A stretch of DNA of 64,000 nt from Sinorhizobium terangae (lineage in GTDB: Bacteria; Pseudomonadota; Alphaproteobacteria; Rhizobiales; Rhizobiaceae): positions 1 to 64,000 of the forward strand of contig NZ_WITC01000078.1 of assembly GCF_009601505.1 (NCBI RefSeq), given 5' to 3'. The translations under genes and the position numbers were made by a program. The notes beneath the pieces are model-generated. The model searched no databases and was not told the DNA's origin. It saw nothing but the letters and a program-made list of their open reading frames with translations. Positions 6,170-56,469 of this stretch are shown piece after piece; the first letter of the stretch is position 1; each line of letters begins with the position of its first letter.

Positions 6170-6184
6170 GGCAGGAGAAAGAAA

Positions 6185-16648: not shown

Positions 16649-16650
16649 TC

Positions 16651-30957: not shown

Positions 30958-31033
30958 ACCAAATCGACGAAGATCGGCTGAAGCCGACGAGAGGAACCGC
31001 GCGTTACGCGCACGTCAAACAGAGGAACTGACG

Positions 31034-31867: not shown

Positions 31868-31876
31868 CGACAGCCC

Positions 31877-31903: not shown

Positions 31904-31938
31904 ACGTTCACCCCTTCTTTTGACCAGTGAGATCGGCA

Positions 31939-32718: not shown

Positions 32719-32727
32719 GAGGGCGAG

Positions 32728-33390
32728 ATGGGTTACTCCTTCGACTTCCAGTCCATCTCCTTCGCGCCGCTCTGGGAGGGACTGATCGTCACTCTTGAGC
32801 TGACGGTTGCCGCCAATCTGATCGGCGTGGTGCTCGGCTTTCCGCTGGCGCGTCTCATCATGAGCCGCCTCGCGCCGATCCGGCTTCCGGCGATGCTTTT
32901 CGTCGAATTCTTTCGCTGCACGCCGGCGATCGTGCAGATCGTCTGGTTCTTCTACTGCGTGCCGATGCTGTTCAACGTCTTTCTCGGTTCGATGACGATG
33001 GGCATCCTGGCGCTCGGCCTCAACCTGATGGCTTTCAATGCCGAGGCCTATCGCGCCGCGATCCAGGCCGTTCCGCGCGAACAGCTCGATGCCGGCATTG
33101 CACTCGGTCTCAATCCGCTCCAGCGCACGCTCTATATCGTGCTGCCGACGGCGGTTCGCGCCTCTGTCCCCGTGCTGCTCACCAACGGCATCGGCATCTT
33201 TCAGCAGACCGCCCTGGTCGCAATCGTCGCCGTGCAGGACCTCATGTACCAGGCGAAGACGCTTGCGACCGAGACCTATCGGCCGATCGAGACCTTCACC
33301 ATCGTCGCGCTCGTCTACTTCGCCGTCTCGTTCCCCGTCTCCCAGATCGTCGGCTACCTCGAGCGCCGCCGCCAGCTGATGATGAGCTGA
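32728..33390 (+). CDS. Amino-acid ABC transporter permease, HypP-like
   Basis: A 220-residue HisM/HisQ-family permease with about five membrane helices. The EAA-type cytoplasmic loop is near AYRAAIQAVPREQLDAGIALGL. GGAGGGCGAG precedes the ATG, 9 bp after the ATPase stop. It pairs with the next gene product to form the membrane channel. Confidence 0.92.
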   Translation: MGYSFDFQSISFAPLWEGLIVTLELTVAANLIGVVLGFPLARLIMSRLAPIRLPAMLFVEFFRCTPAIVQIVWFFYCVPMLFNVFLGSMTMGILALGLNLMAFNAEAYRAAIQAVPREQLDAGIALGLNPLQRTLYIVLPTAVRASVPVLLTNGIGIFQQTALVAIVAVQDLMYQAKTLATETYRPIETFTIVALVYFAVSFPVSQIVGYLERRRQLMMS

Positions 33391-33401
33391 GGAGAAGACC
33401 C

Positions 33402-34067
33402 ATGGCTCTCGACTTCTCCATCGTCCTTCGCTTCCAGAATGCGCTCGCGCTCGGTCTCTGGATGACGATCAAGCTGACGCTGATCTGTGTCGTTCTCGGC
33501 TGCAGCCTCGGTTTCTTCATCGGCCTCGCCCGGACATCGCGCAGCGCCATTCTGCGCGCGGTTTCCAGCGTCTATGTCGAGTTCTTCCGCGGCACGCCGG
33601 TGCTCGTCCAGCTCTTCTGGATCTTCTTCTGCCTGCCGCTGATCCTCGGCGTCGAGCTCTCCAATCTAACCTCCGGCGTGATCGCACTCACCCTCTATAT
33701 GGGTGCGATTACCAGCGAGACCTTTCGGGCGTCGTTGAAATCAATCGGGCCGGAGCAGCTCGATGCCTCTGTCGCGCTGGGCCTTTCGCGCCGCGTCCAG
33801 GTAACGAGCGTCATCCTGCCCCAGGCGGTGCTGCGCGCCGTCCCGACGCTTCTCTCCAACTGCGTCAGCCTGTTCAAGGAAAGCGCGCTCGTCTCCGCCG
33901 TCGGCATGGCCGACCTGATGTTCGTCGGCCAGAACATTTCCAACAACACGGCGCGCCCGATCGAGGTGCTGACGGTGGTCGCCCTGATCTACTTCGTCAT
34001 CGCTTTTCCTCTGACCCGTGCCGTCACGCTCGTCGAGCGGCGCGTGCTTGCCAAACTCGCGATCTGA
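33402..34067 (+). CDS. Amino-acid ABC transporter permease, HypQ-like
   Basis: A 221-residue partner permease of the same HisMQ family, with VYVEFFRGTPVLVQLFW near residue 60 and the EAA loop ETFRASLKSIGPEQLDASVA. GAGGAGA is upstream, 11 bp after the previous stop. Receptor, ATPase and two permeases make a complete type I importer. Confidence 0.92.
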   Translation: MALDFSIVLRFQNALALGLWMTIKLTLICVVLGCSLGFFIGLARTSRSAILRAVSSVYVEFFRGTPVLVQLFWIFFCLPLILGVELSNLTSGVIALTLYMGAITSETFRASLKSIGPEQLDASVALGLSRRVQVTSVILPQAVLRAVPTLLSNCVSLFKESALVSAVGMADLMFVGQNISNNTARPIEVLTVVALIYFVIAFPLTRAVTLVERRVLAKLAI

Positions 34068-34097
34068 TCGCGGCCGAATTTGAAAAGGAGACCTTCG

Positions 34098-34976
34098 ATG
34101 AAACTCTCTGGCGTTATGCCCGCCCTCATCACCCCGTTCGACGCGAACAATAGGGTCGACTTCAAGGCTTTTGAAAAGCTTCTGGCACATCTGCGGGAGG
34201 CCGGTGTCACCGGCTGGGTTCCGAACGGCTCGACCGGGGAGTATTTCAGCCAGTCCACGGAAGAGCGACGCGATGTGCTGCAATTCGTCAAGGATTTTGC
34301 CAGGCCGGGCGAAACTCTGATCGCCGGCACAAATGCGCCCGCCACCCGCGAGGTTATTGAGCAGACCGCGATCGCCAATGAGATCGGCTATAACACTGTG
34401 CTACTCGCGCCGCCATTCTACACCCGGCCGACGCAAGCCGAACTGATCCGGCATTATGAAACCGTCCTCGACGCCGTCGACGTGAACCTGGTCCTCTATT
34501 CCTATCCGGCCAAGGATGGCTCGGACATCAGTTTCGAGCTGATGGACCATTTCGCCGACAATCCGCGGGTGATCGGGATCAAGGAAAGCTCGGGCGTTTT
34601 GCAGCGCGCGATCGACATCGCCAGCCGCTACGAAGGCCGCATTCAACTGGTTTCCGGCTCGGACGACATCGCGCTCGACTTCATGTTCTGGGGAGCAGAA
34701 AGCTGGATCTGCGGGCCGGCGAACTGCATGGCCAAAGCCTGCTGCGATCTTGATAGCATCTTCAGATCCGGCGATCTCTCCAAGGCGCGGGCGCAGATGA
34801 AAACGCTCTACCGGGCGATGAACATCCTCGAAAGCGGTAAGTTCGTGCAGAAGATCAAATATGGCTGCGAGCTTCAGGGCCTGCCCATGGGCGAGTGCCG
34901 CGCGCCGCTCGGACCGCTGACCGACGATGAAAAGGCCGAGTTCCGGGCAGCCATGGAGCCGATCCTGAACTGGTAA
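34098..34976 (+). CDS. DapA/dihydrodipicolinate synthase-family protein, probable pyrroline-4-hydroxy-2-carboxylate deaminase
   Basis: A 292-residue class I aldolase-fold enzyme. The Schiff-base lysine is K162 (VIGIKESSG), the proton-relay tyrosine is Y134 (VLYSYP), and the substrate-carboxylate loop is GSTGEYF (44-50). In hydroxyproline pathways a DapA-family member (HypD/LhpC) converts delta-1-pyrroline-4-hydroxy-2-carboxylate to 2-oxoglutarate semialdehyde and ammonia. The flanking oxidase, dehydrogenase and epimerase support that assignment over lysine biosynthesis. AAGGAG sits 7 bp before the ATG; an in-frame TTG 18 bp upstream is less likely. Confidence 0.8.
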   Translation: MKLSGVMPALITPFDANNRVDFKAFEKLLAHLREAGVTGWVPNGSTGEYFSQSTEERRDVLQFVKDFARPGETLIAGTNAPATREVIEQTAIANEIGYNTVLLAPPFYTRPTQAELIRHYETVLDAVDVNLVLYSYPAKDGSDISFELMDHFADNPRVIGIKESSGVLQRAIDIASRYEGRIQLVSGSDDIALDFMFWGAESWICGPANCMAKACCDLDSIFRSGDLSKARAQMKTLYRAMNILESGKFVQKIKYGCELQGLPMGECRAPLGPLTDDEKAEFRAAMEPILNW

Positions 34977-35039
34977 TCGCCGCCGGAGGGTGTGGAAATT
35001 GCCCTCCAGCTCTCCAACCTGTTTTGTCGAGGACAGCTC

Positions 35040-36275
35040 GTGTCTCCTATCGCAGTCGTCGGCGCCGGTGTGATCGGCGCGACCATCGCTTTCGAGCTTC
35101 AGCGTCGCGGACGGAGCGTCGTGCTGATCGACCGGGAAGGCCCCGGCAAGGGCGCTTCCTACGGCAACATGGCCTCGATCGCCGTCACTGAGTTCATGCC
35201 CGCATCGCGGCCGGGAATCTGGGCGCAGATGCCGACGTGGCTCCTCGATCCGGAGGGGCCGGTGCGCATCCGGCCGTCCTACCTGCCGAAACTCATGCCC
35301 TGGTTCCTGCGCTTCCTGGCGGCGAGCCGGCCGTCGCGCGTGCGAAAATTGGAAGCAGCAGGCGCGGTGCTTTGCCGCCGTGTCCACGAAGACCTCGATT
35401 TCCTTCTCAAGGCGGCCAGTCTGTCCGACATGCTGACGGCGGAGGGATGTCTGAGCCTCTATGCGAACGAGGCCGAGTTCAGGGCGGATCGCGAGCATAT
35501 CGAAGTCCTGGAGCGCTTCGGCTTCCGCCACGAAGTCTTGAGCGGGAACGCGATCCGCGACCTTGAGCCTGCAGTGACGTCAAAAATCGAAAAAGCGGTG
35601 CTCTTTCCCGACAACCGTTCGATCCGCGACCCGTACCAACTGGTCGTCAAGCTTAGCGAAAAGTTTCTCTCGTCGGGCGGAAGGATCGAGCAGGGCGAGG
35701 TTATCGGCTTCGATCACGGCGGCGGCGTCAAGGCTGTCCGCCTCAAGGATGGCCGCTCGATAGCTGCTTCGGAAATCGTGCTTGCAGCCGGTGCCTTTAC
35801 CTGCAAGCTGTCGCGGCTGCTCGGCGAGCCGATCCCGCTCGAAACCGAGCGCGGCTACCACACCCAGATCATGGCTCCGGGCATTTCGATGCGCCACTCG
35901 ATCATCTGGCCGGCGCGCGCCTTCATGGTGACGCCGACGGCCGGCGGCATTCGCGTCGGCGGCACGGTGGAGATGGCTGGGCTCGACGCCGCGCCGGACT
36001 ATCGGCGGGCGAAAGTGCTCGTCAAGCGCGCGAAGGGGGCCCTGCCGGATCTGCGGGTCGAAAAGGCGACGGAATGGATGGGCCATCGCCCGGCGCTTCC
36101 CGATACGGTGCCGATCATCAGCCCTTCGGCAAAGCACCGTGGCGTCTTTTATGCCACCGGCCACGGCCATCTGGGCCTCACCTACGCGGCGACGACCGCG
36201 CGGCTGGTCAGCGATCTCGTGACCGGTGCGCCGCCGCCGATCGATCTCAAACCATATCGCGTCGACCGGTTCTGA
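35040..36275 (+). CDS. FAD-dependent D-amino-acid dehydrogenase family (DadA-like), probable D-hydroxyproline oxidase
   Basis: A 411-residue FAD oxidoreductase of the DAO family. The dinucleotide motif is VVGAGVIGATIAFE near the N-terminus, DREGPGKGASYGN follows, and the C-terminal GHGHLGLTYAATTARLVSDL closes the FAD site. GTG is used as start (VSPIAVVGAG), with GAGG 7 bp upstream, giving the usual DadA length; the frame continues upstream without homology. In the hydroxyproline route it would oxidise cis-4-hydroxy-D-proline to pyrroline-4-hydroxy-2-carboxylate (HypO role). It is a single-chain enzyme, unlike the multi-subunit LhpB complex of some pseudomonads. Confidence 0.82.
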   Translation: MSPIAVVGAGVIGATIAFELQRRGRSVVLIDREGPGKGASYGNMASIAVTEFMPASRPGIWAQMPTWLLDPEGPVRIRPSYLPKLMPWFLRFLAASRPSRVRKLEAAGAVLCRRVHEDLDFLLKAASLSDMLTAEGCLSLYANEAEFRADREHIEVLERFGFRHEVLSGNAIRDLEPAVTSKIEKAVLFPDNRSIRDPYQLVVKLSEKFLSSGGRIEQGEVIGFDHGGGVKAVRLKDGRSIAASEIVLAAGAFTCKLSRLLGEPIPLETERGYHTQIMAPGISMRHSIIWPARAFMVTPTAGGIRVGGTVEMAGLDAAPDYRRAKVLVKRAKGALPDLRVEKATEWMGHRPALPDTVPIISPSAKHRGVFYATGHGHLGLTYAATTARLVSDLVTGAPPPIDLKPYRVDRF

Positions 36276-36311
36276 CGTCAGGCCCGCCAGCGAGGAATCA
36301 AGGAGTGAACC

Positions 36312-37787
36312 ATGCGCAGTGAACTCTACATCGATGGAAAATGGACAGCGGCATCAAGCGGCGCGATGTTCGATGTCGTCAATCCGGCGACGGAAGAAGT
36401 GATCCACGAGGTCGCCGCGGCCACGGCGAAGGACGTAGATCTCGCCGTGAAGGCGGCGCGTCGCGCCTTCGACAAGGATGGCTGGCCGAAGCTGTCGGGC
36501 GCGCAACGGGCAAAATATTTGCGCGCCATCGCTGACGGCATCCGGGCGCGACAGGCGGAAATCGCCCGTCTCGAAGTCATCGACAACGGCAAGCCGTTTC
36601 CGGAGGCCGATTGGGATGTCGCCGATGCGGCCGGCTGCTTCGATTTCTATGCGGGGCTTGCCGAGCAGTTCGACAACAATCCGGAAGAGCCGATCGCGCT
36701 TGCCGATGCTCGCTTTACCTCCAAGGCGGTCAAGGAGCCGATCGGCGTCGCCGGTGCGATCATCCCCTGGAACTACCCGCTTCTCATGGCGGCCTGGAAG
36801 GTGGCGCCGGCGCTTGCCGCCGGCTGCACGGTCGTGCTGAAGCCGGCCGAAGTGACGTCGCTGACGGCGCTCGAACTCGCGGCGATCGCCGACGAGACGG
36901 GCTTGCCGCCGGGCGTGCTCAATATCGTCACCGGGTCCGGCTCGGTCGCCGGACAGGCGATCATCGACCACAGGCAAGTCGACAAGCTCGCCTTCACCGG
37001 CTCCGGCCCGGTCGGCTCGAAGATCATGGCGGCCGCAGCTCGCGACATCAAGCGCGTCAGCCTCGAACTCGGTGGCAAGTCGCCCTTCGTCGTCTTCGAC
37101 GATGCCGATATCGACGAGGCGGTCGAATGGATCATGTTCGGCATCTTCTGGAACCAGGGGCAGGTCTGCTCCGCCACATCGCGCGTCCTCGTGCAGCAGG
37201 GCATCTACGACCGCCTGCTGGCGCGACTTGTCGAAGAAACGAAGAAGATCAGGATCGGCAATGGTCTCGAAGAGGGCGTGCTGCTCGGGCCGCTGGTCTC
37301 CAGGCGCCAGCACGAGCAGGTGGTCGCTGCGATCGAAGCGGCGAAAGCTGCCGGGGCGACTGTCGCCTGCGGCGGGAAGCGCCCGGAAGGCTTCGAGAAA
37401 GGCTACTATCTCGAGCCGACGATCCTGACCGAAGCGCCGTTGGAGAGTGATGCCTGGCGCGAGGAGATTTTCGGCCCGGTCGTCTGCATCCGTCCGTTCG
37501 CAACCGAAGAGGAGGCGATCGAGCTTGCCAACGATTCCCGCTTCGGCCTCGCCGCAGCGGTGATGTCGAAGGACGATGTCCGCGCCGAACGGGTCGCGAG
37601 CGCCTTCCGCGCCGGCATCGTCTGGATCAACTGCTCGCAGCCGACGTTCACTGAGGCACCCTGGGGCGGCTACAAGGAATCGGGCATCGGCCGCGAACTC
37701 GGCCGCTGGGGCCTCGAAAACTATCTCGAGACGAAACAGATCACCCGTTTTGCCACCGGCGAGAAGTGGGGGTGGTACCTCAAATGA
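36312..37787 (+). CDS. Aldehyde dehydrogenase family protein, probable 2-oxoglutarate semialdehyde dehydrogenase
   Basis: A 491-residue NAD(P)+-dependent aldehyde dehydrogenase: cofactor-binding segment IPWNYPLLMAAWKVAPALA, general base E252 (LELGGKSP), nucleophile C286 (NQGQVCSATSR) and EEIFGPVV. Sequence features such as WGGYKESGIGRELG resemble betaine-aldehyde dehydrogenases, but the neighbours point to oxidation of 2-oxoglutarate semialdehyde to 2-oxoglutarate, the last step of hydroxyproline breakdown. AAGGAG precedes the ATG. Its stop overlaps the epimerase start by 4 bp. A general amino-aldehyde role is the main alternative. Confidence 0.83.
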   Translation: MRSELYIDGKWTAASSGAMFDVVNPATEEVIHEVAAATAKDVDLAVKAARRAFDKDGWPKLSGAQRAKYLRAIADGIRARQAEIARLEVIDNGKPFPEADWDVADAAGCFDFYAGLAEQFDNNPEEPIALADARFTSKAVKEPIGVAGAIIPWNYPLLMAAWKVAPALAAGCTVVLKPAEVTSLTALELAAIADETGLPPGVLNIVTGSGSVAGQAIIDHRQVDKLAFTGSGPVGSKIMAAAARDIKRVSLELGGKSPFVVFDDADIDEAVEWIMFGIFWNQGQVCSATSRVLVQQGIYDRLLARLVEETKKIRIGNGLEEGVLLGPLVSRRQHEQVVAAIEAAKAAGATVACGGKRPEGFEKGYYLEPTILTEAPLESDAWREEIFGPVVCIRPFATEEEAIELANDSRFGLAAAVMSKDDVRAERVASAFRAGIVWINCSQPTFTEAPWGGYKESGIGRELGRWGLENYLETKQITRFATGEKWGWYLK

Positions 37788-38836
37788 ATGGCTCCGTCTC
37801 CATGAACTGGACCCGCTCCCTTGACCTGCTGTTGGTCCATTGCCAGGGCGAGATCGGCAAGGTGATCGTCGGTGGTGCGCCGGAAATTCCGGGCGCGACC
37901 ATGCTCGACAAGATGAACCACATCAACGCGGTCGACGACAGCCTGCGCCGCTTCGTCACGTTCGAACCGCGCGCGAGCGTCGCCATGTCGATCAATCTGC
38001 TCGTCGCGCCGACGCGGCCCGGTACCGATGCAGGCGTCATCGTGCTGCAGGCCGACCGTGCCCATCCGATGTCTGGCAGCAATTGCATATGCGTCGTGAC
38101 CGCTCTGCTCGAAAGCGGCCAAGTTGCTATGCAGGAACCGGAAACGATCGTCCGGCTCGACACGCCGGCCGGCTTGATCGTCGCCCGCGCCGCCTGCCGC
38201 GATGGCCGCTGTCTGTCCGTCAGCCTCGACAATGTGCCGAGTTTCGCCGAGGCGCTGGACCGGGAGGTCGAGACGCCGCGATGGGGTCGCATCAAGGCCG
38301 ATATCGCCTTTGGCGGCGTCTACTACGCGATCGTCGATGTCGACCAGATCGGCGTCGAGATCGCGCCGGCGCATGCGCGCTATCTGGCGGAGGCGGGGAT
38401 AGAGCTGAAGTCGCTTCTCGCCGAGCAGATGACCGTGCGCCATCCAGAACTTACGGGTATCGACGAGATCGCCTATGTGATGTTCCGCGCACGGGACCCG
38501 GACGGCGCCGTGCGCACCTGCACGACGTTGAAGCCGGGGCGCGTCGACCGGTCGCCCTGTGGCACGGGAAGCTCCGCAAACCTGGCGACGCTCCATGCCC
38601 GCGGCGAGGTCGCCATTGGAGATCGGCGGATATCGCGCTCGATCATCGGCGGCGAATTCATTGCCGAGGCGATCGGTACGGCGGAGGTCGGCGGCCGACC
38701 TGCAGTGCTGCCGCGGATCACCGGGCGCGGCTGGATCTATGGTCGGGAGCAGCTCCGCATCTCCAGCGACGACCCGTTCAGAAGCGGCTTTGCGCTCTCC
38801 GACAGCTGGGGACCGCAGGTCGATATGCTGGGCTGA
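37784..38836 (+). CDS. Proline racemase family protein, probable hydroxyproline 2-epimerase with Ser/Cys active site
   Basis: A 350-residue member of the proline racemase superfamily, which uses two opposed acid/base residues for stereo-inversion at C-alpha. The second catalytic cysteine is present as C259 (SPCGTGSSAN). The first position, Cys in proline racemase and most 4-hydroxyproline epimerases, is serine here: S97 in HPMSGSN. Dehydratase members instead change the second Cys to Thr, so dehydration is less likely. The pathway context suggests trans-4-hydroxy-L-proline to cis-4-hydroxy-D-proline. The ATG at 37784 overlaps the dehydrogenase stop (ATGA); a second ATG at 37802 is possible. 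Confidence 0.82.
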   Translation: MNGSVSMNWTRSLDLLLVHCQGEIGKVIVGGAPEIPGATMLDKMNHINAVDDSLRRFVTFEPRASVAMSINLLVAPTRPGTDAGVIVLQADRAHPMSGSNCICVVTALLESGQVAMQEPETIVRLDTPAGLIVARAACRDGRCLSVSLDNVPSFAEALDREVETPRWGRIKADIAFGGVYYAIVDVDQIGVEIAPAHARYLAEAGIELKSLLAEQMTVRHPELTGIDEIAYVMFRARDPDGAVRTCTTLKPGRVDRSPCGTGSSANLATLHARGEVAIGDRRISRSIIGGEFIAEAIGTAEVGGRPAVLPRITGRGWIYGREQLRISSDDPFRSGFALSDSWGPQVDMLG

Positions 38837-38849
38837 AGGAGAAATGGCG

Positions 38850-39611
38850 ATGTCTGCAAAATCTCTCGCGGGCCAACACGTGCTTGTCACGGGCGCTTCC
38901 GGTGGGATCGGGGCTGCGATCGTCGAGCGGCTGGCGAAGGAGGGCGCACGCCCGATCATCCATTACGGCCGCGACAGGGCGGCGGCCGAGGCGCTGCTCG
39001 CGCGGATTTCCGGCAATGGGCGGATCGTCCAGGCCGACCTTTCCAACACCGACGGGGCCTTCGAGCTCTGGCGGAAGGCGGAGGTCGAGGCAGGCCGCAT
39101 CCACGCGCTGGTCAACAATGCCGGCATCCGCACCGAGGTTTCGATCGACGCGGGCTGCGACGCCTGGAGGGACGCCTGGCGACAAGAGTTCCAGGTGAAT
39201 TTCTTCGCCGCCGCCGATCTCTGCAAGGAGGCACTCAGGCACTTCAAGGCGCATGCCGGCGGCCGCATCGTCAATATGGCCAGCCGCGCGGGCCAGCGCG
39301 GCTATGCGGCCGATGCGATGCCCTATGGCGCGACCAAGGCGGCACTGATCAATCTCACGAAATCGATCGCGCGCAGCTTCGGCGGGGACGGCGTCGTTGC
39401 GGTGGCGATCGCGCCCGGCTGGGTGAAGACGGAGATGGCCGAGGACTTTGTCGCGAAATTCGGCAAGCAGGCCGCTGTCGCCGACATACCGATCGGCGAG
39501 ATGGCAGATGTCTCGGAAATCGCCGAGCTCGTTGCCTTCGCGCTCAGGCCATCGCAGCGTTCGCTGAATGGCGCAACGCTCGACGTCAATGGCGGCAGCT
39601 ACATTCGTTAG
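38850..39611 (+). CDS. Short-chain dehydrogenase/reductase (SDR), first of tandem pair
   Basis: A 253-residue classical SDR: cofactor motif VTGASGGIGAAIVE (13-26), NNAG (89-92), and the S145-Y159-K163 triad (NMASRAG and PYGATKAA). The C-terminus LNGATLDVNGGSYIR is typical. The ATG at 38850 is chosen because AAGGAG lies 8-9 bp upstream; an ATG 6 bp earlier is too close to it. It follows the epimerase by 13 bp and is probably in the same operon. Its step in hydroxyproline use is not known; oxidation or reduction of a hydroxylated ring or side product is possible. Confidence 0.86.
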   Translation: MSAKSLAGQHVLVTGASGGIGAAIVERLAKEGARPIIHYGRDRAAAEALLARISGNGRIVQADLSNTDGAFELWRKAEVEAGRIHALVNNAGIRTEVSIDAGCDAWRDAWRQEFQVNFFAAADLCKEALRHFKAHAGGRIVNMASRAGQRGYAADAMPYGATKAALINLTKSIARSFGGDGVVAVAIAPGWVKTEMAEDFVAKFGKQAAVADIPIGEMADVSEIAELVAFALRPSQRSLNGATLDVNGGSYIR

Positions 39612-39628
39612 ATCTCAAGGAGCGGAAC

Positions 39629-40384
39629 ATGATGAGATTAGAGGGCAGGGTCGCGGTCGTTACCGGCGGGGGCGGAGGAATCGGTTCCGCCATATCGCGG
39701 CGGCTGGCGGAAGAGGGCGCGTTGGTGGTGGTCTCCGACGTCAACGCCGATGCGGGGAGGACCGTCGCCGCCGAAATCGTCGCGGCTGGTGGCTCCGCCG
39801 TCGCCATCGCCGCTGACATTTCTCATAAGGAGCCCTGCTTCGGGCTGATCGCCGAGACATTTGCGCTGAAGAAACGCATCGACATTCTCGTCAACAACGC
39901 CGGTATAAATCGGCGCGGCAACCTGTTGTCACTGACCGACGACGACTGGCACGCGAGCTTCGCGGTCAATCTCGATTCGATGTTCCATCTCTGCCGCGCC
40001 GCCATCCCGCACATGATCGAGGCAGGCGGCGGCGCGATCGTCAACACCGCCTCGCAATGGGGCCTCTACCCGGCGCCGAACCACATCGCCTACAACACCA
40101 CAAAGGCCGCGGTTGCGGCTTTCACGCAGAACCTCGCCCGCGACTATGCCCCGCACAAGGTCCGCGTCAACGCGGTCTGCCCCGGCGAAATCCACACGCC
40201 CATGCTCGAGGCGGGGGTTAAGCGCTCGGGGCGCACTATCGCCGACCTCGACAAGCTTGTGCCGTTCGGCCGGATCGGCAAGCCGGAGGAAGTTGCCGCG
40301 CTTGTCGCCTTTCTCGCATCCGATGAGGCAGCCTTCATGTGCGGCTCGCTCGTCGAGATAACGGGTGCTCAGGCGGTTGCTTGA
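39629..40384 (+). CDS. Short-chain dehydrogenase/reductase (SDR), second of tandem pair
   Basis: A 251-residue classical SDR: VTGGGGGIGSAISR (11-24), NNAG (89-92), catalytic S142-Y155-K159, and VCPGEIHTPM after the catalytic region. AAGGAG is upstream, 17 bp after the first SDR. The two SDRs are clearly different in sequence, so they are not a recent duplication. It is the last gene of the cluster; the following gene is on the opposite strand. Substrate unknown. Confidence 0.86.
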   Translation: MMRLEGRVAVVTGGGGGIGSAISRRLAEEGALVVVSDVNADAGRTVAAEIVAAGGSAVAIAADISHKEPCFGLIAETFALKKRIDILVNNAGINRRGNLLSLTDDDWHASFAVNLDSMFHLCRAAIPHMIEAGGGAIVNTASQWGLYPAPNHIAYNTTKAAVAAFTQNLARDYAPHKVRVNAVCPGEIHTPMLEAGVKRSGRTIADLDKLVPFGRIGKPEEVAALVAFLASDEAAFMCGSLVEITGAQAVA

Positions 40385-40454
40385 AGTGGCGAGCGGCAGC
40401 AACGGGCCGATCATTCAGGTTCCGTCTATCGCAGTCGGCTGGAAGAGACCATCG

Positions 40455-40808
40455 CTATTCAAGGTCCTCTTGCACAAATTTGCTCGCGACATGGAGATCC
40501 GTCGTCTCCAGGCGACCGGGACCCAGGTTGACAAATTTGTGTGGCGTGTTCGCAGGCCCGAAGACGATCTGCCCCGAAGTGGCTTCTAGCTGCTGGTCGC
40601 CAACGGTAAACAGAGCCCGGCCTTGGCGAACGATAAAAACTTCATCATACGGATGCTTGTGGAGTTTGGGGCCTCGGCCGATTTCATCAGTTGTGTAGAA
40701 GATAACGGAGATGTCGGTGCCAAACACGTTACCTTCGAATCCACCTTTCCAAACGTCCTCCTTTTCAGCCCATTGAGCACGGTTCAGGAGTGCCGGTTTC
40801 TTTTGCAT
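40455..40808 (-). CDS. Cupin-domain protein
   Basis: A 117-residue single-cupin protein. Motif 1 is KLHKHPYDEVFIVRQGRA, with its two His, Glu and a following Gly, and motif 2 is FGPANTPHKFVN. The metal ligands (H, H, E, H) are therefore intact. It starts at ATG 40808 with AGAGGAAC upstream. It converges on the SDR genes with 70 bp between and has no operon partner. Small cupins serve as isomerases, dioxygenases or sensors; no function can be assigned. Confidence 0.83.
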   Translation of the reverse strand: MQKKPALLNRAQWAEKEDVWKGGFEGNVFGTDISVIFYTTDEIGRGPKLHKHPYDEVFIVRQGRALFTVGDQQLEATSGQIVFGPANTPHKFVNLGPGRLETTDLHVASKFVQEDLE

Positions 40809-42910: not shown

Positions 42911-43072
42911 AGAGAGCCCTCCCCAACCCAACAAGGGGGAGGGGCTTACGATGCAGCGCCCGCTCCGTCTCGGCCCCGACGGTTCCATGGTTTGAGGGTG
43001 CTGGAGATTGGCACCTGCGTTGGCCGCGCGTGCCAAACTCCTCCCCCTTGTGAGGACGGTTGGGGAGGGGTC
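42911..43072. repeat. Inverted pair of REP-like elements (BIME/MITE-like)
   Basis: CCCTCCCCAACC...ACAAGGGGGAGG (42918-42944) recurs inverted at 43038-43070 with a short insertion. Each arm is itself a hairpin (CCCTCCCC/GGGGAGGG), and the two arms can pair with each other. The enclosed roughly 95 bp are unique within the window. The layout resembles paired REP sequences or a small non-autonomous element. Confidence 0.65.
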
Positions 43073-43170
43073 TTGATTTCGGACGCACCGTAGCCGGTCC
43101 CCTTCCTTTACATTTCGGCTTCCCATGCGCACACTCGCGCCCCAGGAAGGCGTTCCGTTGGGAGGCGGTC

Positions 43171-45057
43171 ATGTTTTCACATTCCGACCATATCCGCGAA
43201 ATCGAGCGCGTCGGCCGTGGCCTTCCGAGCAGTCGCGACGATATGGTCGTCAAATCCTGGCGACGCTGCCTGGAGCATCACCGCCTCGACCCGGCGCAGG
43301 CTTGCGAGGCCTATATCGTACCGGAGACGCGGCTCAAGGAGCATCGCCAGCAATCGGAAGACCTGATCACCATCGCCCGCTCCGGTCTCGAGCATCTGTT
43401 CCGGCAGGTGGCGGGCCAGAACTATGTGCTCCTGCTCTCCGACCGGCAGGGCGTGACTGTCGAGTTCCTTGGCGACCCGCTCTTCAACAACAGCCTTCGC
43501 AAGGCGGGCCTCTATCTCGGTTCCGAATGGTCCGAATGGCGCGCCGGAACCTGCGCTGTCGGCGCCTGCATCGAGACGGGCGAGGCGTTGACGATCCACC
43601 AGACCGACCACTTCGACAACACGCACACGCCGCTCTCCTGCACGGCGGCGCCGATCTACGACATCCACGGCGAACTTTCGGCCGTCCTCGACATCTCGCT
43701 GTTGAGCTCACCGATCCTGAAGGCAAGCCAGAACCTGGCGCTTCATCTCGTCACCGCCAGCGCAAGGCGGATCGAGCTCGCCAATCTCATGGCTCAGGCT
43801 CGGCACCAATGGGTGCTGCGTTTCTCGCGCTCGCCGGAATTCCTCGACGTCGATCCGGAGGCGGCGATCTCGATCGATGGTCTTGGGCGGATTGCCGGCA
43901 TGACCCATGGCGGGGCGAAGATCCTCGCCCGATCGACCGGGCTTGACTGGCGTGATCCGCGCCAACTCATCGGCGAGCCGGTATCGCGCTTCCTCGACCT
44001 GGAGATCGACGACCTTCCCGAGCTCACGCGCCGTCGGCCGACGCAGGAGCGGCTCGTTTTCGCCCGCGACGGCAATGCGCTCTTTGCCCATGCCATCGAG
44101 CCGCATTCCGGCATCCGCGCGCCGGGCGTCTCGCGCGCTCAGATCCCGCCGCCGCTGCGCCGGCTCGGCGGCGATGCGCCCGAAATCGTCGCATTGCAGG
44201 CAAAGGCCGCGAAACTCGCCCGCACGGGGCTGCCGATCCTCATCCAGGGCGAGACCGGGACTGGCAAGGAATACCTGGCGCGCGCCATCCACGAGGGCAG
44301 CGGCCTCAACGGCCGATTCGTCGCCATCAATTGCGCGGCAATCCCCGAGCAACTGATCGAGAGCGAGCTCTTCGGCTATCTGCCGGGCGCCTTCACCGGC
44401 GCGTCCGCCAAAGGCCGCAAGGGCCTGATCGAGCAGGCGGACGGCGGCACGCTTTTTCTTGACGAGATCGGCGACATGCCTCTTGGACTGCAAAGCCGCC
44501 TGCTCCGGGTGCTGGCCGAGCGCGAAGTGCTTCCGGTCGGAGGCACGGTGCCGCGACCGGTCCAGATCAGGATCGTTTCGGCCTCGCATCGGCCGTTGCA
44601 GGCGCTGGTCTCGCAAGGCGCCTTTCGAGAGGATCTCTATTACCGGCTGAACGCTGCAACGCTCTCGGTCCCGCCGCTGAGAGACAGACGGGATTTCGAC
44701 TGGGTGCTGGAGCAGATCCTGAAGCGGCATTCCGGTGCTCAAGGTGATCTGGCGTTCTCTCCGGCCGCGCTGGTCGCCCTCAAGGCGCATGATTGGCCGG
44801 GAAACATTCGCGAACTCGACAACGCCGTCGCGGTTGCGGCGGCGCTAGCCGATGGCTCTGTCATCGAAGTTTGCGATCTTCCGGACTATCTCGTAGCGAA
44901 GATCGAGCCGGACGAGGCGGGCAATGCGGGGACGGCGTTAAGCCTGATGCTCGACGCCTGCAACTGGAACATTTCCGAGGCGGCCCGCCGTCTAGGCCTC
45001 GACCGCTCGACGGTGCATCGGCAGATCAGGCGCTATCACCTGAAGCCGCATCGGTAA
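43171..45057 (+). CDS. Sigma-54-dependent transcriptional activator, AcoR type
   Basis: A 628-residue activator: N-terminal GAF sensor (about 60-210), a short PAS-like linker (about 240-300), a sigma-54 AAA+ domain (about 335-550) and a C-terminal Fis-type HTH (NISEAARRLGLDRSTVHRQI). AAA+ motifs: Walker A GETGTGKE, the sigma-54 contact loop GAFTGAS, Walker [12 protein letters not shown] and the arginine-finger region. There is no receiver domain, so it senses a ligand directly through GAF, as AcoR does. GGGAGG precedes the ATG. The next gene, a flavin monooxygenase, has a -24/-12 promoter and is the obvious target. Confidence 0.9.
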   Translation: MFSHSDHIREIERVGRGLPSSRDDMVVKSWRRCLEHHRLDPAQACEAYIVPETRLKEHRQQSEDLITIARSGLEHLFRQVAGQNYVLLLSDRQGVTVEFLGDPLFNNSLRKAGLYLGSEWSEWRAGTCAVGACIETGEALTIHQTDHFDNTHTPLSCTAAPIYDIHGELSAVLDISLLSSPILKASQNLALHLVTASARRIELANLMAQARHQWVLRFSRSPEFLDVDPEAAISIDGLGRIAGMTHGGAKILARSTGLDWRDPRQLIGEPVSRFLDLEIDDLPELTRRRPTQERLVFARDGNALFAHAIEPHSGIRAPGVSRAQIPPPLRRLGGDAPEIVALQAKAAKLARTGLPILIQGETGTGKEYLARAIHEGSGLNGRFVAINCAAIPEQLIESELFGYLPGAFTGASAKGRKGLIEQADGGTLFLDEIGDMPLGLQSRLLRVLAEREVLPVGGTVPRPVQIRIVSASHRPLQALVSQGAFREDLYYRLNAATLSVPPLRDRRDFDWVLEQILKRHSGAQGDLAFSPAALVALKAHDWPGNIRELDNAVAVAAALADGSVIEVCDLPDYLVAKIEPDEAGNAGTALSLMLDACNWNISEAARRLGLDRSTVHRQIRRYHLKPHR

Positions 45058-45084
45058 GAGTGGCGTCACCCGATTCTGGAGGGC

Positions 45085-45156
45085 ACCTGCAACAGGTCGG
45101 GCGCCTCACTTGTGGCGACCGCATCGAGGCGTGCAACAGTCCTAATTCCTCCTGTT
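45085..45156 (+). promoter_or_regulatory. Candidate upstream activating sequences for the AcoR-type activator
   Basis: ACCTGCAACAGGT (45085-45097) is a perfect inverted repeat. The core TGCAACAG recurs at 45132-45139, 44 bp downstream, and is followed by an AACAG...CTGTT inverted repeat ending at 45156. They lie about 35-110 bp upstream of the -24 element, a usual place for activator binding. Confidence 0.45.
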
Positions 45157-45191
45157 CCTGAAAACATTGCGGTTTTCCTGGCTGCGACGCT

Positions 45192-45207
45192 TGGCACGGC
45201 CATTGCA
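45192..45207 (+). promoter_or_regulatory. Sigma-54 (-24/-12) promoter of the flavin monooxygenase gene
   Basis: TGGCACGGCCATTGCA has the invariant GG and GC at the correct spacing (TGGCAC-N5-TTGCA). Transcription would start near 45218, about 90 bp before the ATG. The same arrangement occurs before dctA in this window. Confidence 0.85.
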
Positions 45208-45307
45208 CATCGCTGTTCGACCGCAGCGGCAGCGCTGCGCAGAAATACCCTCGCCGGCGGATGAGGAGTCGCCCGCGAGCCAGGCCCAACGAAGAGGAGG
45301 AGATCTC

Positions 45308-47110
45308 ATGCTTGAAGAAAGTCCCAGCACCCGCGTTGACAGCGCGCTCGCCAAGCTCGGCAGGGCGCTCGAACAGGGCGATATCGAGGCCGCCGTCAAC
45401 CTGTTCCAGGCGGACTGTTACTGGCGCGACCTCGTCACGTTTACCTGGAACATCAGGACGATGGAGGGGCGGGACCAGATCCGCGACATGCTGACGAGCC
45501 AGCTCGCAGTGGTGAAGCCGGCGCAGTTTCGTCACGACCCGAACGAACAGGCGAGCGGCGCAGACGGCGTAACCGACGGATGGTTCGAATTCGAGACGGA
45601 CGTGGCGCGGGGCTACGGCCATATCCGGTTAAAGAACGGTCTGATCTGGACGCTTCTCACGACGATGACCGAGCTTAAAGGGCACGAGGAGCCGAAAGGC
45701 CTCAGGCGACCACTCGGCGCCGAGCACGGTCACGACCCCAATCGCCGGACGTGGACGGAAAAGCGCGAGCGGGAGGCGGCCGACCTCGGCTACGCGACGC
45801 AACCCTACGTCGTCATCATCGGCGGCGGCCAGGGCGGCATCGCGCTCGGCGCGCGCCTGCGTCAACTGAACGTGCCGGCGATCATCATCGAGAAGAACGA
45901 ACGCCCGGGCGACAGCTGGCGCAAGCGCTACAAGTCGCTCTGCCTGCACGATCCGGTCTGGTACGACCATCTGCCTTATATTCCCTTCCCGGAGAACTGG
46001 CCGGTCTTCGCGCCGAAGGACAAGATCGGCGACTGGCTGGAGATGTATACCAGGGTGATGGAGCTCAACTACTGGGGCTCGACCACCTGCAAATCCGCCA
46101 AGTACGACGAGCAGGCGAAGGAGTGGTCGGTGGTCGTCGAGCGCAACGGCGAGGAAGTCGTGCTTCGGCCGAAGCAGCTCGTGCTCGCGACCGGCATGTC
46201 GGGCAAGCCGAACATTCCGAAACTCAAGGGCCAGGACGTCTTCAAAGGCGAACAGCAGCATTCGTCTGAGCATCCGGGTCCGGACGCCTATAGCGACAAA
46301 AAGGTGGTCGTGATCGGCTCCAACAATTCCGCGCATGATATCTGCGCGGCGCTTTGGGAAGGCGGTGCCGACGTGACGATGGTGCAGCGTTCGTCGACGC
46401 ACATCGTGCGTTCGGACACGCTGATGGATATCGGGCTCGGGGAGCTCTATTCCGAGCGGGCGGTTGCCGCCGGCATGACGACGCGCAAGGCGGACCTGAT
46501 CTTCGCATCGCTGCCCTATCGGATCATGCACGAGTTCCAGATTCCGCTTTACGAGAAGATGCGCGAGCGCGACGCCAAGTTCTATGCCGATCTGGAAAAG
46601 GCCGGCTTCATGCTCGACTGGGGCGCCGACGGTTCCGGCCTGTTCATGAAATATCTGCGCCGTGGGTCCGGCTACTACATCGACGTCGGCGCCTGCGATC
46701 TCGTCATCGACGGCAGCATCAAGCTGAAATCGGGCTCCGACGTCAGCCACCTGACGGAAGATGCCGTCGTCCTGAAGGACGGCACCGAGATTCCGGCCGA
46801 CCTCGTTGTCTACGCCACCGGTTATGGCTCGATGAACGGTTGGGCGGCCGACCTCATCTCCAAGGAGGTCGCCGACAAGGTCGGCAAGGTCTGGGGCCTC
46901 GGCTCCGATACGCCGAAGGATCCGGGTCCCTGGGAGGGCGAGCAGCGCAACATGTGGAAGCCGACGCAGCAGGAGGCGCTCTGGTTCCACGGCGGCAACC
47001 TGCATCAGTCACGACATTATTCGCAGTATCTTTCACTGCAGCTGAAGGCCCGCTGCGAAGGCATTCCGACGCCGGTCTACGGTCTCCAGGAGCGTCATCA
47101 CCTCGGTTGA
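45308..47110 (+). CDS. Flavin-containing monooxygenase with N-terminal NTF2-like domain
   Basis: A 600-residue protein. Residues about 10-130 form a SnoaL/NTF2-like domain (ALEQGDIEAAVNLFQADCYW; TMEGRDQIRDML). From about 165 it is an FMO/Baeyer-Villiger-like monooxygenase: FAD motif IIGGGQGG (171-178), an FMO-type fingerprint FKGEQQHSSEH (312-322), NADPH motif VIGSNNSAHDI (335-345) and YATGYGSMNGW. It would use NADPH and O2 to oxygenate a carbonyl or heteroatom. GAGGAGGAG precedes the ATG. It is controlled by the sigma-54 promoter at 45192-45207 and probably by the upstream AcoR-type activator. Substrate unknown. Confidence 0.88.
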   Translation: MLEESPSTRVDSALAKLGRALEQGDIEAAVNLFQADCYWRDLVTFTWNIRTMEGRDQIRDMLTSQLAVVKPAQFRHDPNEQASGADGVTDGWFEFETDVARGYGHIRLKNGLIWTLLTTMTELKGHEEPKGLRRPLGAEHGHDPNRRTWTEKREREAADLGYATQPYVVIIGGGQGGIALGARLRQLNVPAIIIEKNERPGDSWRKRYKSLCLHDPVWYDHLPYIPFPENWPVFAPKDKIGDWLEMYTRVMELNYWGSTTCKSAKYDEQAKEWSVVVERNGEEVVLRPKQLVLATGMSGKPNIPKLKGQDVFKGEQQHSSEHPGPDAYSDKKVVVIGSNNSAHDICAALWEGGADVTMVQRSSTHIVRSDTLMDIGLGELYSERAVAAGMTTRKADLIFASLPYRIMHEFQIPLYEKMRERDAKFYADLEKAGFMLDWGADGSGLFMKYLRRGSGYYIDVGACDLVIDGSIKLKSGSDVSHLTEDAVVLKDGTEIPADLVVYATGYGSMNGWAADLISKEVADKVGKVWGLGSDTPKDPGPWEGEQRNMWKPTQQEALWFHGGNLHQSRHYSQYLSLQLKARCEGIPTPVYGLQERHHLG

Positions 47111-51112: not shown

Positions 51113-53329
51113 CTATGCGTTGAGCGATTTTGAGAACGGCATGACGCGGATCCGCTTGCCGAGCGCCTTGTAGGCGGCATTGGCAACGGCCGGGCCGATC
51201 GGCGGAACCCCAGGTTCGCCGATGCCGGAGGGCGGATTGGCCGAGGGCACGATGTGGACTTCGACCTTCGGCATGGAGTCGATCCTGAGCGGCGTATAGA
51301 CGTCGAAATTGCCCTGATCGACCTTGCCGTCCGTCAGCGTGATTTCCTCGCCCAGAATGGCGCCGAGCCCGAAGCCGATGCCGCCCTCGACCTGGGCGCG
51401 GACCTGGTCCGGGTTGATCGCCAGACCGCAATCAACGGCGGCGACCACGCGTTCGACCTTGATGCCGCCATTCCCGTCCGTCGATACCTCGGCGATCTGT
51501 GCCACCACGGAGCCGAAGCTTTCTGCGAGGGCGACACCGCGAAAGCGGCCTTCGGGCAACGGCTTCTGCCATTCCGCCTTGTCCGCCGCCAGCTTGAGCA
51601 CGGTTGCGTGGCGCGACTCTGGCTCGAGCAAGGACAGACGGAATTCCACCGGATCGCGTCCCGCCGCTTCGGCTACCTCGTCGAGGAAGGTTTCGGCGGC
51701 AAAGGCGGTATGCGTCGAGCCGACCGAACGCCACCAGAGAACGGGAACACCGACGTCGGTGGTGGTGAGGCCGACTGTCTGGTTGGGGATGCCATAGGGC
51801 AGGTTGCTCGCCCCTTCGACCGACGTCGGGTCGACCCCGTTTTTGACCATCCCCTCGAACGCCGTCTTCGCCATGATGGACTGGCCGACGATGTGATTGT
51901 TCCAGGCGACGAGCTTTCCGTCCGCATCGATGCCAGCCTTGAGGGTGTGCACATAGGCGGGGCGATAGCGGCCCGCGCGCATGTCGTCCTCGCGCGTCCA
52001 CTGCACCTTTACCGGGGCACGGAACCCGATCGCCTTCGCCGCATGCACGGCCTCGACGACGACATCGCCGTCGAAGACGGCCCGCCGGCCGAAGCTGCCG
52101 CCCGACTTCATGACGTTCAGGCGGACCTTGTCGGGGGCGATTCCGGCGATCTCGCCGGCAAGCTTCTGGTAGACGTCCGGGAACTGGTGTCCGCCCCAGA
52201 CCTCGAGCGTGCCGTCCTCATTCATGCGCGCGACGGCATTCAGCGGCTCCAGGGCGGCGTGCGCGAGATAGGGGAACTCGAAGCTCGCTTCGATGACCTT
52301 CGCCGCCTGCGCAAAGGCGGCATCGGCGTCGCCCTCCTTGCGGGCAACCGCCGCCGGGGTCTTTTTCGCGAGATCGCGGTACGTGGACATGACCGCCTGC
52401 GTGCCGCGCTTTTCCGCCGCCGCGTCGTCCCACTCCACCTTGACTGCCTCGCGCCCCTTGATCGCCGCCCACATGTGTTCGCCAATCACCGCAATTCCCC
52501 GCGGAGTTTCGACGACGTCGACTACGCCCTTGATGCCGCGGGCGGCAGAGGGGTCGAAGGACTTCGCCTTCGCGCCGAAGAGGGGCGGGTGGATCATCAC
52601 GGCCGTCAGCATGCCGGGCAGCTTGACGTCGATCGTATATTGCTCCGTCCCGTTCGTTTTGCGGGCGCTGTCGAAACGCTTCAGGCCGGCATTGCCGATC
52701 AGCTTCCAGTCGCCCGGCTGTTTGAGCTTCACATCTGTCGGCGCCGGCATCGCCGCCGCCCTGGCGGCAAAGACGCCGAAGCCGCCGCTCTTGCCCGAGG
52801 GATGAGCAAGAATGCCGTTCTCGACGGTGATTTCCGCCGCATCGACGCCCCACTCGGAGGCCGCCGCAGCGACAAGCATGGCGCGGGCCGCGGCACCCGC
52901 CTTGCGATAGCGCTCCCACGAGGACGCCATCGAGGTCGAACCTCCGGTTGCCTGGATTGCACCGCCGAAGGCGAGATTGCCGTAGGCCTTGATATTGCCG
53001 GCGGCACCCTTCACGTCGATCGCCGACCAGTCTGCATCGAGTTCTTCCGCCACCAGCGTGGCGAGGCCGTTATAGGAGCCTTGCCCCATTTCGAACTGCG
53101 ATGAAAGGACGGTCACCTTTCCATCGCCGTCGATTATCAGATAGGGCGAAAAGGAATGCGCGCCTTCTGCCGATGTCGTCTCGGCGGCCGCCGCCGGCGA
53201 TGCATGCAGGAGGTGGAAGCCGACGGCGATGCCGGTGCCGGCAGCGAGCGCGCCAATGAGGAACTGCCGCCGCGACGCCTCAACCCGTGCAGCGGGGAGG
53301 GTAACCGATTGCATCAGTCTCGGGATCAT
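51113..53329 (-). CDS. Molybdenum-cofactor aldehyde oxidoreductase large subunit (IorB-like)
   Basis: A 738-residue molybdopterin-binding subunit of the xanthine oxidase family. A twin-arginine signal ([14 protein letters not shown], about 18-31) shows Tat export, so the enzyme works in the periplasm, as in isoquinoline 1-oxidoreductase-type enzymes. Moco-binding elements include [27 protein letters not shown] and, near the C-terminus, the catalytic glutamate in [17 protein letters not shown] precedes the ATG, 3 bp after the true end of the small-subunit frame. It would hydroxylate an aldehyde or N-heterocycle with water as oxygen donor. Its electron-transfer partner gene is interrupted by a stop codon. 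Confidence 0.88.
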
Positions 53330-53332: not shown

Positions 53333-53791
53333 TCAGCCCTCCAGGCGCTTTGCGGCTTCATGAATGCCGGCTCGGATTCGATGATAGGTCGCGCAGCGAC
53401 AGAGATTGCCCGCCATTGCGGCGTCAATGTCCTCGTCGCTGGGCTTCGGATTGCTGGTCAGAAGATCTGTCGCCGACATGATTTGTCCCTACTGACAGTA
53501 GCCGCACTGCGGCACGTCGAGATCGGCCCAGACGGCCTGGACCGCTTCCGCGACCTTGCCCTTGAGCCCCTCGATGGTGGTTACCTCAGCTCCTTCGATG
53601 TCGCCGATGAGCGTCTGGCAGGACCGGACCGGCGCGCCATCGACATAGACCGTGCAGGCGCCGCATTGCGCCATGCCGCAACCGAACTTCGTACCTGTCA
53701 GTCCCACAAGATCGCGGATCACCCAGAGAAGCGGCATATCCGCCTCGGCTTCGACCGAGTGCTTGACGCCGTTGATCGTCACAATTGCCAT
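53333..53791 (-). pseudogene. 2Fe-2S subunit of aldehyde oxidoreductase (IorA-like), interrupted by in-frame TAG
   Basis: The frame from MAIVTINGVKHSVEAEAD runs to CGYCQ and then meets TAG (complement of 53489-53491; codon 101). In the same frame the sequence continues perfectly as the rest of the subunit: [20 protein letters not shown], then [11 protein letters not shown], ending EAAKRLEG and a stop at 53333. Most relatives have Ser at the interrupted position (CGYCQSGQIM), one base from TAG. The first cluster ligands (GCGMAQCGAC) are before the stop, but the CRC pair of the second cluster is after it, so the truncated 100-residue product lacks a complete electron path. GAGGAG precedes the ATG. 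It could be a recent null mutation, readthrough or a sequencing error. Confidence 0.82.
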
Positions 53792-54017
53792 GGTGGTCTC
53801 CTCGCGTTGGGCGCAGCTCTCGGCTTGGGAGATGCCGGTTCGTGCGCCGCAGCCATTCGCCAGGCTGCGGCCAGAGCTTAGAAGACCATACCGCGGCCCG
53901 GTAGAGTCGATCCTGTCGGATTGTTGCCTATTCCTGTCGACTTGACGCAATTGTGATCATGGTGACGCCGCCACGTCGAGCCAAGCGAATCGATTTGAGT
54001 GCCGCACCGCGCCGTTT

Positions 54018-54974
54018 CTAGTCGATCGAGTCGCGCCTGTTCGGCTCGCTGGAGTTCAGGATCGACCTGATGTCCCTTATCGGCGGATGGCCGAAAGCAC
54101 GTCGATATTCCCGGCTGAATTGCGTCGGGCTCTCGTAACCGACGCGTGCGGCGGCCGTCGCTGCGTCGAGCGACTGCGACAGCATCAGGTCCCGTGCGTG
54201 ATGCAGGCGCAGGTGCTTCTGGAACTGCAGCGGGCTCATTGCGGTCATCGCGCGGAAATGGTGGTGGAGCGTCGAAACGCCCATGTTCGCAACCTCTGCC
54301 AACTCCTCGACGCGCAACGGCCGGGCATAATTTTCCTTCAACCATGCCACCGCCTTTGCGACGCGGTTGCTGTTGGTGCCGGCGAGCGCGAAGCGCCGAA
54401 GCCGCGTCCCTTGCTCGCCGGTAAGCAACCGGTAGAGGATCTCATTGTGAATATGATTGGCAAGGAAAGGGATGTCCGCCGGCGAGTTCACCAGCGAAAT
54501 CAGTCGCAACAGCGCGTCGAACAATTCCGGTGTCGCGGCGCCGACGACGACGCCGAGGTCGCGTTCGGGCATGTCCGCTGGCTGTATGTCGTGATCGGTG
54601 ATGATCCTGCGCAGTTTCTCCAGATCAAGGCGCAGGGTCGCGGCCACATAAGGCTCGCCCTCGCTCGCCTCGCAGATCTGGCCGGTCATGGGCAAGCCGA
54701 TGGCGGTCACGAAGAAGCAGGACTCGTCGTAGACGAGCGTTTCGTTGCCGACCTTGACGCGCTTGCTACCCTTGACGATCAGCGACAGGCTCGGTTCCGA
54801 GACACCGGAAAACGGCCCGGCCGGCTCGATGACGCGGTAGAGGACGAGCCCCGGGATCGGATGGCTGTAGCGAACCCCGTCCCACGGCAGTTGCGAGAGC
54901 TTGTCGAGAATTCGCGTGCGAAGGGGCGCTGTTTCTTCGCGCAGGTCGCGCTTCTGCATGCTTGCCTCGCTCAT
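54018..54974 (-). CDS. AraC-family transcriptional regulator
   Basis: A 318-residue regulator with an N-terminal AraC-type cupin-like domain (LVLYRVIEPAGPFSGVSEPS; SLIVKGSKRVKVGNE) and a C-terminal double HTH (VEELAEVANMGVSTLHHHFR; DAATAAARVGYESPTQFSRE). It resembles the YqhC-like group, which often respond to aldehydes. It is upstream of, and in the same direction as, the aldehyde-oxidoreductase genes with about 226 bp between, so it may control them. The start is uncertain: MSEAS at 54974 is used; MQKRD at 54959 has a better GAGG, and an ATG at 55004 is also in frame. Confidence 0.85.
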   Translation of the reverse strand: MSEASMQKRDLREETAPLRTRILDKLSQLPWDGVRYSHPIPGLVLYRVIEPAGPFSGVSEPSLSLIVKGSKRVKVGNETLVYDESCFFVTAIGLPMTGQICEASEGEPYVAATLRLDLEKLRRIITDHDIQPADMPERDLGVVVGAATPELFDALLRLISLVNSPADIPFLANHIHNEILYRLLTGEQGTRLRRFALAGTNSNRVAKAVAWLKENYARPLRVEELAEVANMGVSTLHHHFRAMTAMSPLQFQKHLRLHHARDLMLSQSLDAATAAARVGYESPTQFSREYRRAFGHPPIRDIRSILNSSEPNRRDSID

Positions 54975-55098
54975 TGCCGTATCTTTATTGGGCCGTCTCT
55001 TCATTGGCGTTCGACCGCTAAGCTTATCACAATATTTTGATCTCGACACGATTAGGCAACCGCCAACCAGCAATGCTGCCCGATATCTCTTCCCAATT

Positions 55099-56469
55099 TC
55101 AGGCTCGATTGTCCGACGGCGCAGCCCGCTCTGCATAGTCCGCCCGGTTGATGCCGTGGCGTTGCAGCTTGTCATAGAAGGTCTTGCGCGGAATGCCGAG
55201 CGCTTCCAGCGTTTCCTTGACGTCACCCCGATGCGCCGTCAGGGCTTCCTTCAGGATCTCGGCCTCGTAGCGCTCCAGCCGCTCCGGAAGCGATGCCCCG
55301 GCATCGGCCGCAGGCGGGAGCGGGTTGCCGAGGTTTCCTTCAACACCAAGCGCCACACGCTCCGCAAAATGCGACAGCTCGCGCACATTGCCGGGCCAGG
55401 AATGCGACATCAGGTGTTGCTGGACAGCCAGAGACACCGACGGAACGTCACGCTCGAAACGTTCCGCCGCCCGGCTCAGGAAATGCGAGAAGAGCAGCGG
55501 AATATCCTCGCGCCGCTCGCGCAGCGGCGGGATCGAAAGCGTCACGACATTCAGCCGGTAGTAGAGGTCTTCACGAAAGTCGCCGCGCTCCGCGGGATCG
55601 CCGAGGTCGACCTTGGCGGCGGCAACGACCCGGATGTCGACCGGCCGCGTCTCGTTGGTGCCGAGCGGAGTGATCTCCCGCGCTTCGAGCACGCGCAGCA
55701 TCTTTACCTGGGTTGCCGGCGGCATCGCCTCGATCTCGTCGAGAAACAGCGTGCCGCCGCTTGCATGCTCGATCCGGCCGATCCGCTTTTTCACGGCTCC
55801 GGTGAAGGCGCCCGGCTCGTGACCAAAGAGCTCGCTTTCGATGACCGTTTCGGGGAGCGCGCCGCAGTTGAGGGCTACGAAATTGCCGTTCCTGCGTCGG
55901 CTCCACTGGTGAAGCAGGGTCGCGACCACCTCCTTGCCGCTGCCGGTCTCACCGGCGACAAGCACGTCGACGTCGGTGTCGGCAATGTGTTTCAGCGTCT
56001 GTCGCAACCGTTCCATCACCGCTGTCTGGCCGATCAGCGGCAGGCTGTCGGAGGCGGCTTCCGCCGCGCGGCGCAGCGCCCGGTTCTCCATCACCAGGCG
56101 GCGCTTCTCCTCGGCGCGGCGCGCGCTCTGGACCAGCCGATCGGCGGCAAAGGGCTTGGCGATAAAATCATAGACCCCATCCTGAATGGCCTGCACGGCC
56201 ATCGGAATGTCGCCGTGTCCAGTGACCAGAATGACGGGAAGATCCGGGTCGAGGGCCGCCACCTTCTGGAAGAAAGCGAGCCCGTCGAGGCCCGGCATGC
56301 GGATATCGCTGATGACGACCCCGTCGAATTCGGGGTTGAGCGCGTCAAGCGCCTCGATGGCGCTGGCAAAGGGCGAGACCGTGAATCCGGCGAGCTCCAG
56401 GGTCTGCTGCATCGCCTTGCGCAGGTCGCGGTCGTCGTCGATCAGGAACACGGATGCGGCGTCGCTCAT
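55099..56469 (-). CDS. dctD: C4-dicarboxylate transport transcriptional activator
   Basis: DctD (456 residues) is an NtrC-family response regulator. The receiver domain (1-120) has phospho-acceptor D55 ([10 protein letters not shown]); the sigma-54 AAA+ domain follows with Walker A GETGSGKE (173-180), GAFTGA and [10 protein letters not shown]; the C-terminal Fis-type HTH is [20 protein letters not shown]. Phosphorylated by DctB, it activates dctA from upstream sites. It overlaps dctB by 4 bp (ATGA), so they form a coupled two-gene operon divergent from dctA. Confidence 0.95.

Follow-up and report, generated by a model that had tools for sequence, protein, structure and literature searches.

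Sinorhizobium terangae is a soil bacterium that nodulates legumes. We analysed a stretch of 64,000 nucleotides (hereafter the window) from an S. terangae draft genome of 7.08 Mb in 139 contigs (completeness 100%, contamination 0.89%). In the right-hand part of the window lies a pair of genes predicted to encode a periplasmic molybdenum-containing oxidoreductase with a small 2Fe-2S subunit and a large molybdopterin-binding subunit. The large-subunit gene is intact and the small-subunit gene is interrupted by a premature TAG (Table 1). Our conspecific comparison draws on one other S. terangae genome, that of strain CB3126, where the same region is carried by plasmid pCB3126_1 (NZ_CP121660.1, 2,093,508 bases) at 97.0% identity over 2001 bases.

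Table 1. Features at and around the interrupted small-subunit gene, in window coordinates.
Feature	Position	Strand	Basis
Molybdopterin-binding large subunit, intact, 738 aa, twin-arginine start	51113..53329	-	Open frame, Pfam
2Fe-2S (Fer2 + Fer2_2) subunit gene, 152 codons plus TGA, broken by TAG at codon 101	53333..53791	-	Sequence, Pfam, intact orthologues
Premature TAG, codon 101; Ser codon (TCN) in 29/29 other genus loci read; change on the window branch	53489..53491	-	Codon comparison
Predicted truncated product, 100 aa, with the whole N-terminal Fer2 cluster and half of the second (CGYC)	53492..53791	-	Sequence, Pfam, cysteine positions
Orphaned C-terminal 51 codons with CRC motif, in frame	53333..53488	-	Versus CB3126: 3 synonymous, 0 missense
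Possible restart frame, ATG 9 nt past the TAG, 48 aa (speculative)	53333..53479	-	Sequence; weak ribosome-site pairing
AraC-family regulator (AraC_N + HTH), upstream, same direction; start codon chosen by us	54018..54959	-	Frame, Pfam

The small-subunit gene begins with an ATG at the complement of 53789-53791 and ends with a TGA at 53333-53335. A first-pass annotation of this DNA had reported the in-frame TAG, with the remainder of the frame intact and ending 3 bp ahead of the large-subunit ATG. Inspection of the sequence and a search of the strain's own genome confirmed the TAG, which lies between CGYCQ and GQIMSATD and is followed by 51 sense codons in frame; a three-base spacer, GCC, lies between the TGA and the start codon of the large subunit at 53329. 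When the stop is represented as X, the whole frame matches both Fer2 (37 bits) and Fer2_2 (94.5 bits) above the Pfam cut-offs, the domain set of a 2Fe-2S subunit of xanthine-oxidase-type molybdenum hydroxylases, whereas the 100-residue piece upstream of the TAG retains Fer2 and scores 26.7 bits for Fer2_2, below the cut-off of 30.3. The frame specifies eight cysteines, at residues 38, 43, 46, 58, 96, 99, 131 and 133. From the known fold we take the four N-terminal cysteines to hold the first cluster and C96/C99 together with C131/C133 to hold the second. Six of the eight precede the TAG and two (C131/C133) follow it, such that not all eight are found on one translated chain, and the first-pass annotation was right that only one complete cluster is encoded ahead of the stop.

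The large subunit is encoded by a single open frame that contains a twin-arginine start (SRRQFL), MoCoBD_1 (136 bits) and MoCoBD_2 (99 bits) domains and, near the C-terminal end, a GIGEPG motif. The earlier description of this subunit as intact with a Tat start therefore stands; that the catalytic glutamate which it mentioned is the one in GIGEPG is presumed from what is known of the family. The gene pair is bordered by a convergent LysR-type regulator and by the AraC-family regulator, and none of its immediate neighbours is a gene for a cytochrome subunit.

The AraC gene is 92.6% identical to its CB3126 counterpart, compared with ~98% in the flanking genes, and differences rise at about 54.2-55.2 kb, which suggests local allele exchange around window positions 54000-55200. 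Domain matches between 55099 and 59889 indicate a sigma-54 response regulator and a sensor kinase adjoining a dicarboxylate symporter, an arrangement that we take to be DctBD/DctA-like. On a larger scale, ~10 kb of the window (30516-40705) has no match in the 75-kb CB3126 region compared, and identity to CB3126 is 99.3% to the left of this segment (2314-30515) and 96.8% to its right (40706-64000). This mosaic suggests an insertion together with recent recombination.

For both subunits the closest solved relative by sequence is the aldehyde dehydrogenase of PDB entry 8gy3. The small subunit corresponds to chain B (E = 1.1e-53 over residues 6-150, with the intact CB3126 orthologue as query) and the large subunit to chain C (E = 7.3e-78 over residues 16-732). 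The 8gy3 enzyme has the same CGYCQSGQIM motif as the window family. It presumably also has a cytochrome subunit, whereas the window pair has no directly adjacent gene for one and its small subunit is interrupted. In its make-up the window pair also resembles the two-subunit molybdenum hydroxylases of the IorAB (isoquinoline 1-oxidoreductase) type, which combine a small 2Fe-2S subunit with a large molybdenum subunit and have no adjoining gene for an FAD subunit. All NCBIfam matches of the small subunit (17) and of the large subunit (13) fell below their cut-offs, so that neither PaoABC nor any other named enzyme was reached. The literature, covered largely through article listings, yielded no functional data on the gene and no paper for SMb20343; PMC10880074 names an S. 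meliloti SMb20342-20343 operon, which may or may not correspond to the window gene.

To place the TAG in context we compared codon 101 among relatives at increasing distance. Relative to CB3126, in which codon 101 is TCG, the small-subunit gene has nine synonymous differences (six of them before the TAG), no missense difference and one nonsense difference, and beyond the TAG the frame shares 98% identity with its uninterrupted CB3126 counterpart, which is more than chance would give. A search of 33 genomes of the genus returned matches in 32, including the window's own (G022 had no match), and the stop was present in none of the other 31 orthologues. Codons could be read at 30 genus loci, with G003 and G031 left out of this reading (the G031 match covers residues 2-126): the window has TAG and the other 29 specify serine, through TCG in 18, TCC in 10 and TCA in one. 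The stop was likewise absent from the 28 family orthologues other than the window's that were recovered when 297 genomes were searched (29 matched at a strict limit), four of these 28 being genus members already counted. Among the best 80 of at least 586 relatives in a species-wide contig collection, none has the stop, the CGxC...CxC stretch is whole in all, and the residue at codon 101 is Ser in 70, Ala in 8 and Pro in 2. A pattern representing the stop at this site matched twice among 178 loci, both times in the window's own genome. A search of plasmids matched 79 records, and the alignment at codon 101 covered one of these, that of CB3126.

These counts bear out the first-pass annotation's view that serine is usual at this position, with its TCG codon one base away (position 53490). 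That annotation had left a choice between recent loss, readthrough and a wrong base. It had also proposed that TCG in close relatives would, given clean reads, favour a recent null allele, and that a stop shared by several relatives would instead point to functional readthrough. The codon in CB3126 favours the null allele, on that same proviso of clean reads, and the lack of the stop from every relative examined argues against functional readthrough.

With a more distant genome of the genus (G028) as outgroup, the stop is placed on the window's own branch. Besides the stop, the small subunit gained three synonymous changes on this branch, while the large subunit gained 17 that are synonymous and two that are missense. 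On the CB3126 branch the small subunit shows six synonymous changes; the large subunit shows 17 synonymous changes and one missense change (the large-subunit figures exclude five differences not placed on either branch). The counts on the two branches are comparable, so the window branch carries no surplus of amino-acid changes. The gene pair thus shows no sign of relaxed selection following the appearance of the TAG, indicating that the stop is either very young or not real.

A stop that is not real could be a wrong base in the draft consensus, or a mutation confined to the sequenced culture, with the enzyme intact in the natural strain. Such an origin is compatible with the assembly being a draft in many contigs and with the change being a lone substitution, and the lack of decay elsewhere in the small-subunit gene or in the large subunit fits an error as well as it fits a very young mutation. 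With regard to the quality of the surrounding sequence, however, apart from the TAG no internal stop occurs in the window's copies of the 11 likely genes compared between 45 and 64 kb, nor does any frameshift relative to CB3126, and the completeness and contamination ratings of the genome are good. Moreover, strain-private nonsense alleles are common, and substitution errors that create stops should be rare in modern drafts. We consider an error or culture mutation unlikely, though it is the leading alternative.

The gene-by-gene comparison covered 13 named frames between 41 and 64 kb, comprising the 11 likely genes and two frames of uncertain status, one of which (42992-45057) differs from CB3126 by four synonymous and 20 missense changes and a 1-base gap. 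Relative to the more distant G028, katG has short gaps at its edge and the symporter gene has them near its start; the G028 response regulator has a stop at codon 455. A cruder comparison of the whole window with CB3126, in which open reading frames were defined by length alone, gave four stops and several frameshifts. Two of the four stops fall in the minus-strand frame 45026-47017. We rejected these as instances of gene loss and took the frame to be non-coding, because it lies opposite a likely gene on the plus strand (45167-47110) and shows 44 missense against five synonymous differences. Two minus-strand frames of unsure gene status, 16004-16810 and 29040-29387, are open in CB3126 and have a stop in the window; the length-changing differences between 1 and 43 kb are of similarly unsure meaning.

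If the stop is real, it might still be read through, by suppression or by recoding, to give a full-length subunit. The frame downstream of the TAG is intact and identical at the protein level to that of CB3126, and an in-frame TAG followed by an intact frame is also what is seen in genes with natural TAG readthrough or recoding (pyrrolysine being one example). The window gene differs from these in that its stop is not conserved in any relative examined, no tRNA with a CTA anticodon was found and release factor 1 is present. Using ARAGORN, we found no CTA anticodon among the tRNAs at 49 places identified with Rfam. This set also contained no tRNA-Ile(GAT) or tRNA-Ala(TGC), indicating that the draft misses some tRNA genes, and a suppressor tRNA could have been missed with them; such a tRNA is nevertheless unlikely. 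The genome encodes a release factor 1 that scores above its cut-off, and TAG also terminates the neighbouring AraC gene in the window strain and its orthologue in CB3126, for which reasons we rejected the notion that TAG no longer serves as a stop codon. Conserved readthrough was rejected as well, since the stop is private to the window strain among the relatives examined. A scan of the window gave no Rfam match at or above a gathering score. Taken with these observations, readthrough of any kind strikes us as very improbable. Separately, the genome contains a selenocysteine tRNA with anticodon TCA (contig C39:9492-9582), and TGA recoding may occur in this organism.

The remaining alternative is that a single mutation has split the gene, with translation stopping at the TAG and restarting at the in-frame ATG downstream, such that chains of 100 and 48 residues would together rebuild a subunit with two clusters. 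Besides the position of this ATG, such a fission would be helped by the mutation itself, which slightly strengthens the computed pairing with the anti-Shine-Dalgarno sequence (-5.2 versus -4.7 kcal/mol). This pairing is, however, far weaker than that at the start of the small subunit (-8.8 kcal/mol) or of the large subunit (-9.8 kcal/mol), and the second cluster would need to be assembled from two chains. In addition, the methionine in question is part of the GQIMSA motif and is present in 30 of the 30 genus loci read, and a residue common to all of these loci was not made for a restart. We accordingly attach hardly any weight to a split but functional subunit.

We think it probable, with good though not complete confidence, that the locus holds a very recent, strain-private null allele created by a TCG to TAG change at codon 101. 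Judged from the sequence comparisons, the gene is probably a nonsense pseudogene: intact alleles exist in the conspecific (the one other S. terangae genome) and in related genomes, and the stop is derived. It shares with ordinary strain-specific nonsense pseudogenes a private stop, intact alleles in conspecific and related genomes and an otherwise undecayed frame, and differs from them only in its recency. The single substitution would have arisen on the window strain's own lineage, and its recent origin is suggested by the lack of further visible decay in the gene or in its partner, the large subunit. Ribosomes would be expected to halt after residue 100, and the second 2Fe-2S cluster, deprived of two of its four cysteines, would then fail to form. 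In the molybdenum hydroxylase fold family electrons run from the molybdenum site via both 2Fe-2S clusters. The molybdenum-containing large subunit would consequently be left with no outlet for electrons, and probably with no proper assembly partner, and the periplasmic oxidoreductase would be inactive in the window strain.

A second, related enzyme is encoded elsewhere in the same genome. Contig C92 carries an open pair (3468-6116, minus strand) that specifies a complete periplasmic molybdenum enzyme, with a small subunit of 152 aa that is 63% identical to the window's and a large subunit of 717 aa that is 38% identical. The pair is followed by a gene for a small protein that has no Pfam match, and whose CB3126 copy contains two CxxCH motifs. 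The counterpart of this locus in CB3126 (approximately 5597-7571 of the matching stretch) is without ~4.6 kb present on C92 (5444-10079); the gap takes away the small subunit together with ~60 N-terminal residues of the large subunit and is followed by a change of frame. No small subunit with more than 48% identity was found in CB3126 other than the orthologue of the window gene. It thus appears from these comparisons that, of the two related enzymes, each strain has lost a different one. Resting on two strains, this pattern is an observation and not evidence of compensation; it fits oxidations that are dispensable and perhaps dependent on substrate.

The interruption is most likely a case of ordinary strain-specific gene loss, and offers a clear-cut instance of a loss-of-function allele of very recent origin. 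An annotation guided by the large subunit, which is intact, would wrongly count the enzyme among those of the window strain if the allele is indeed null.
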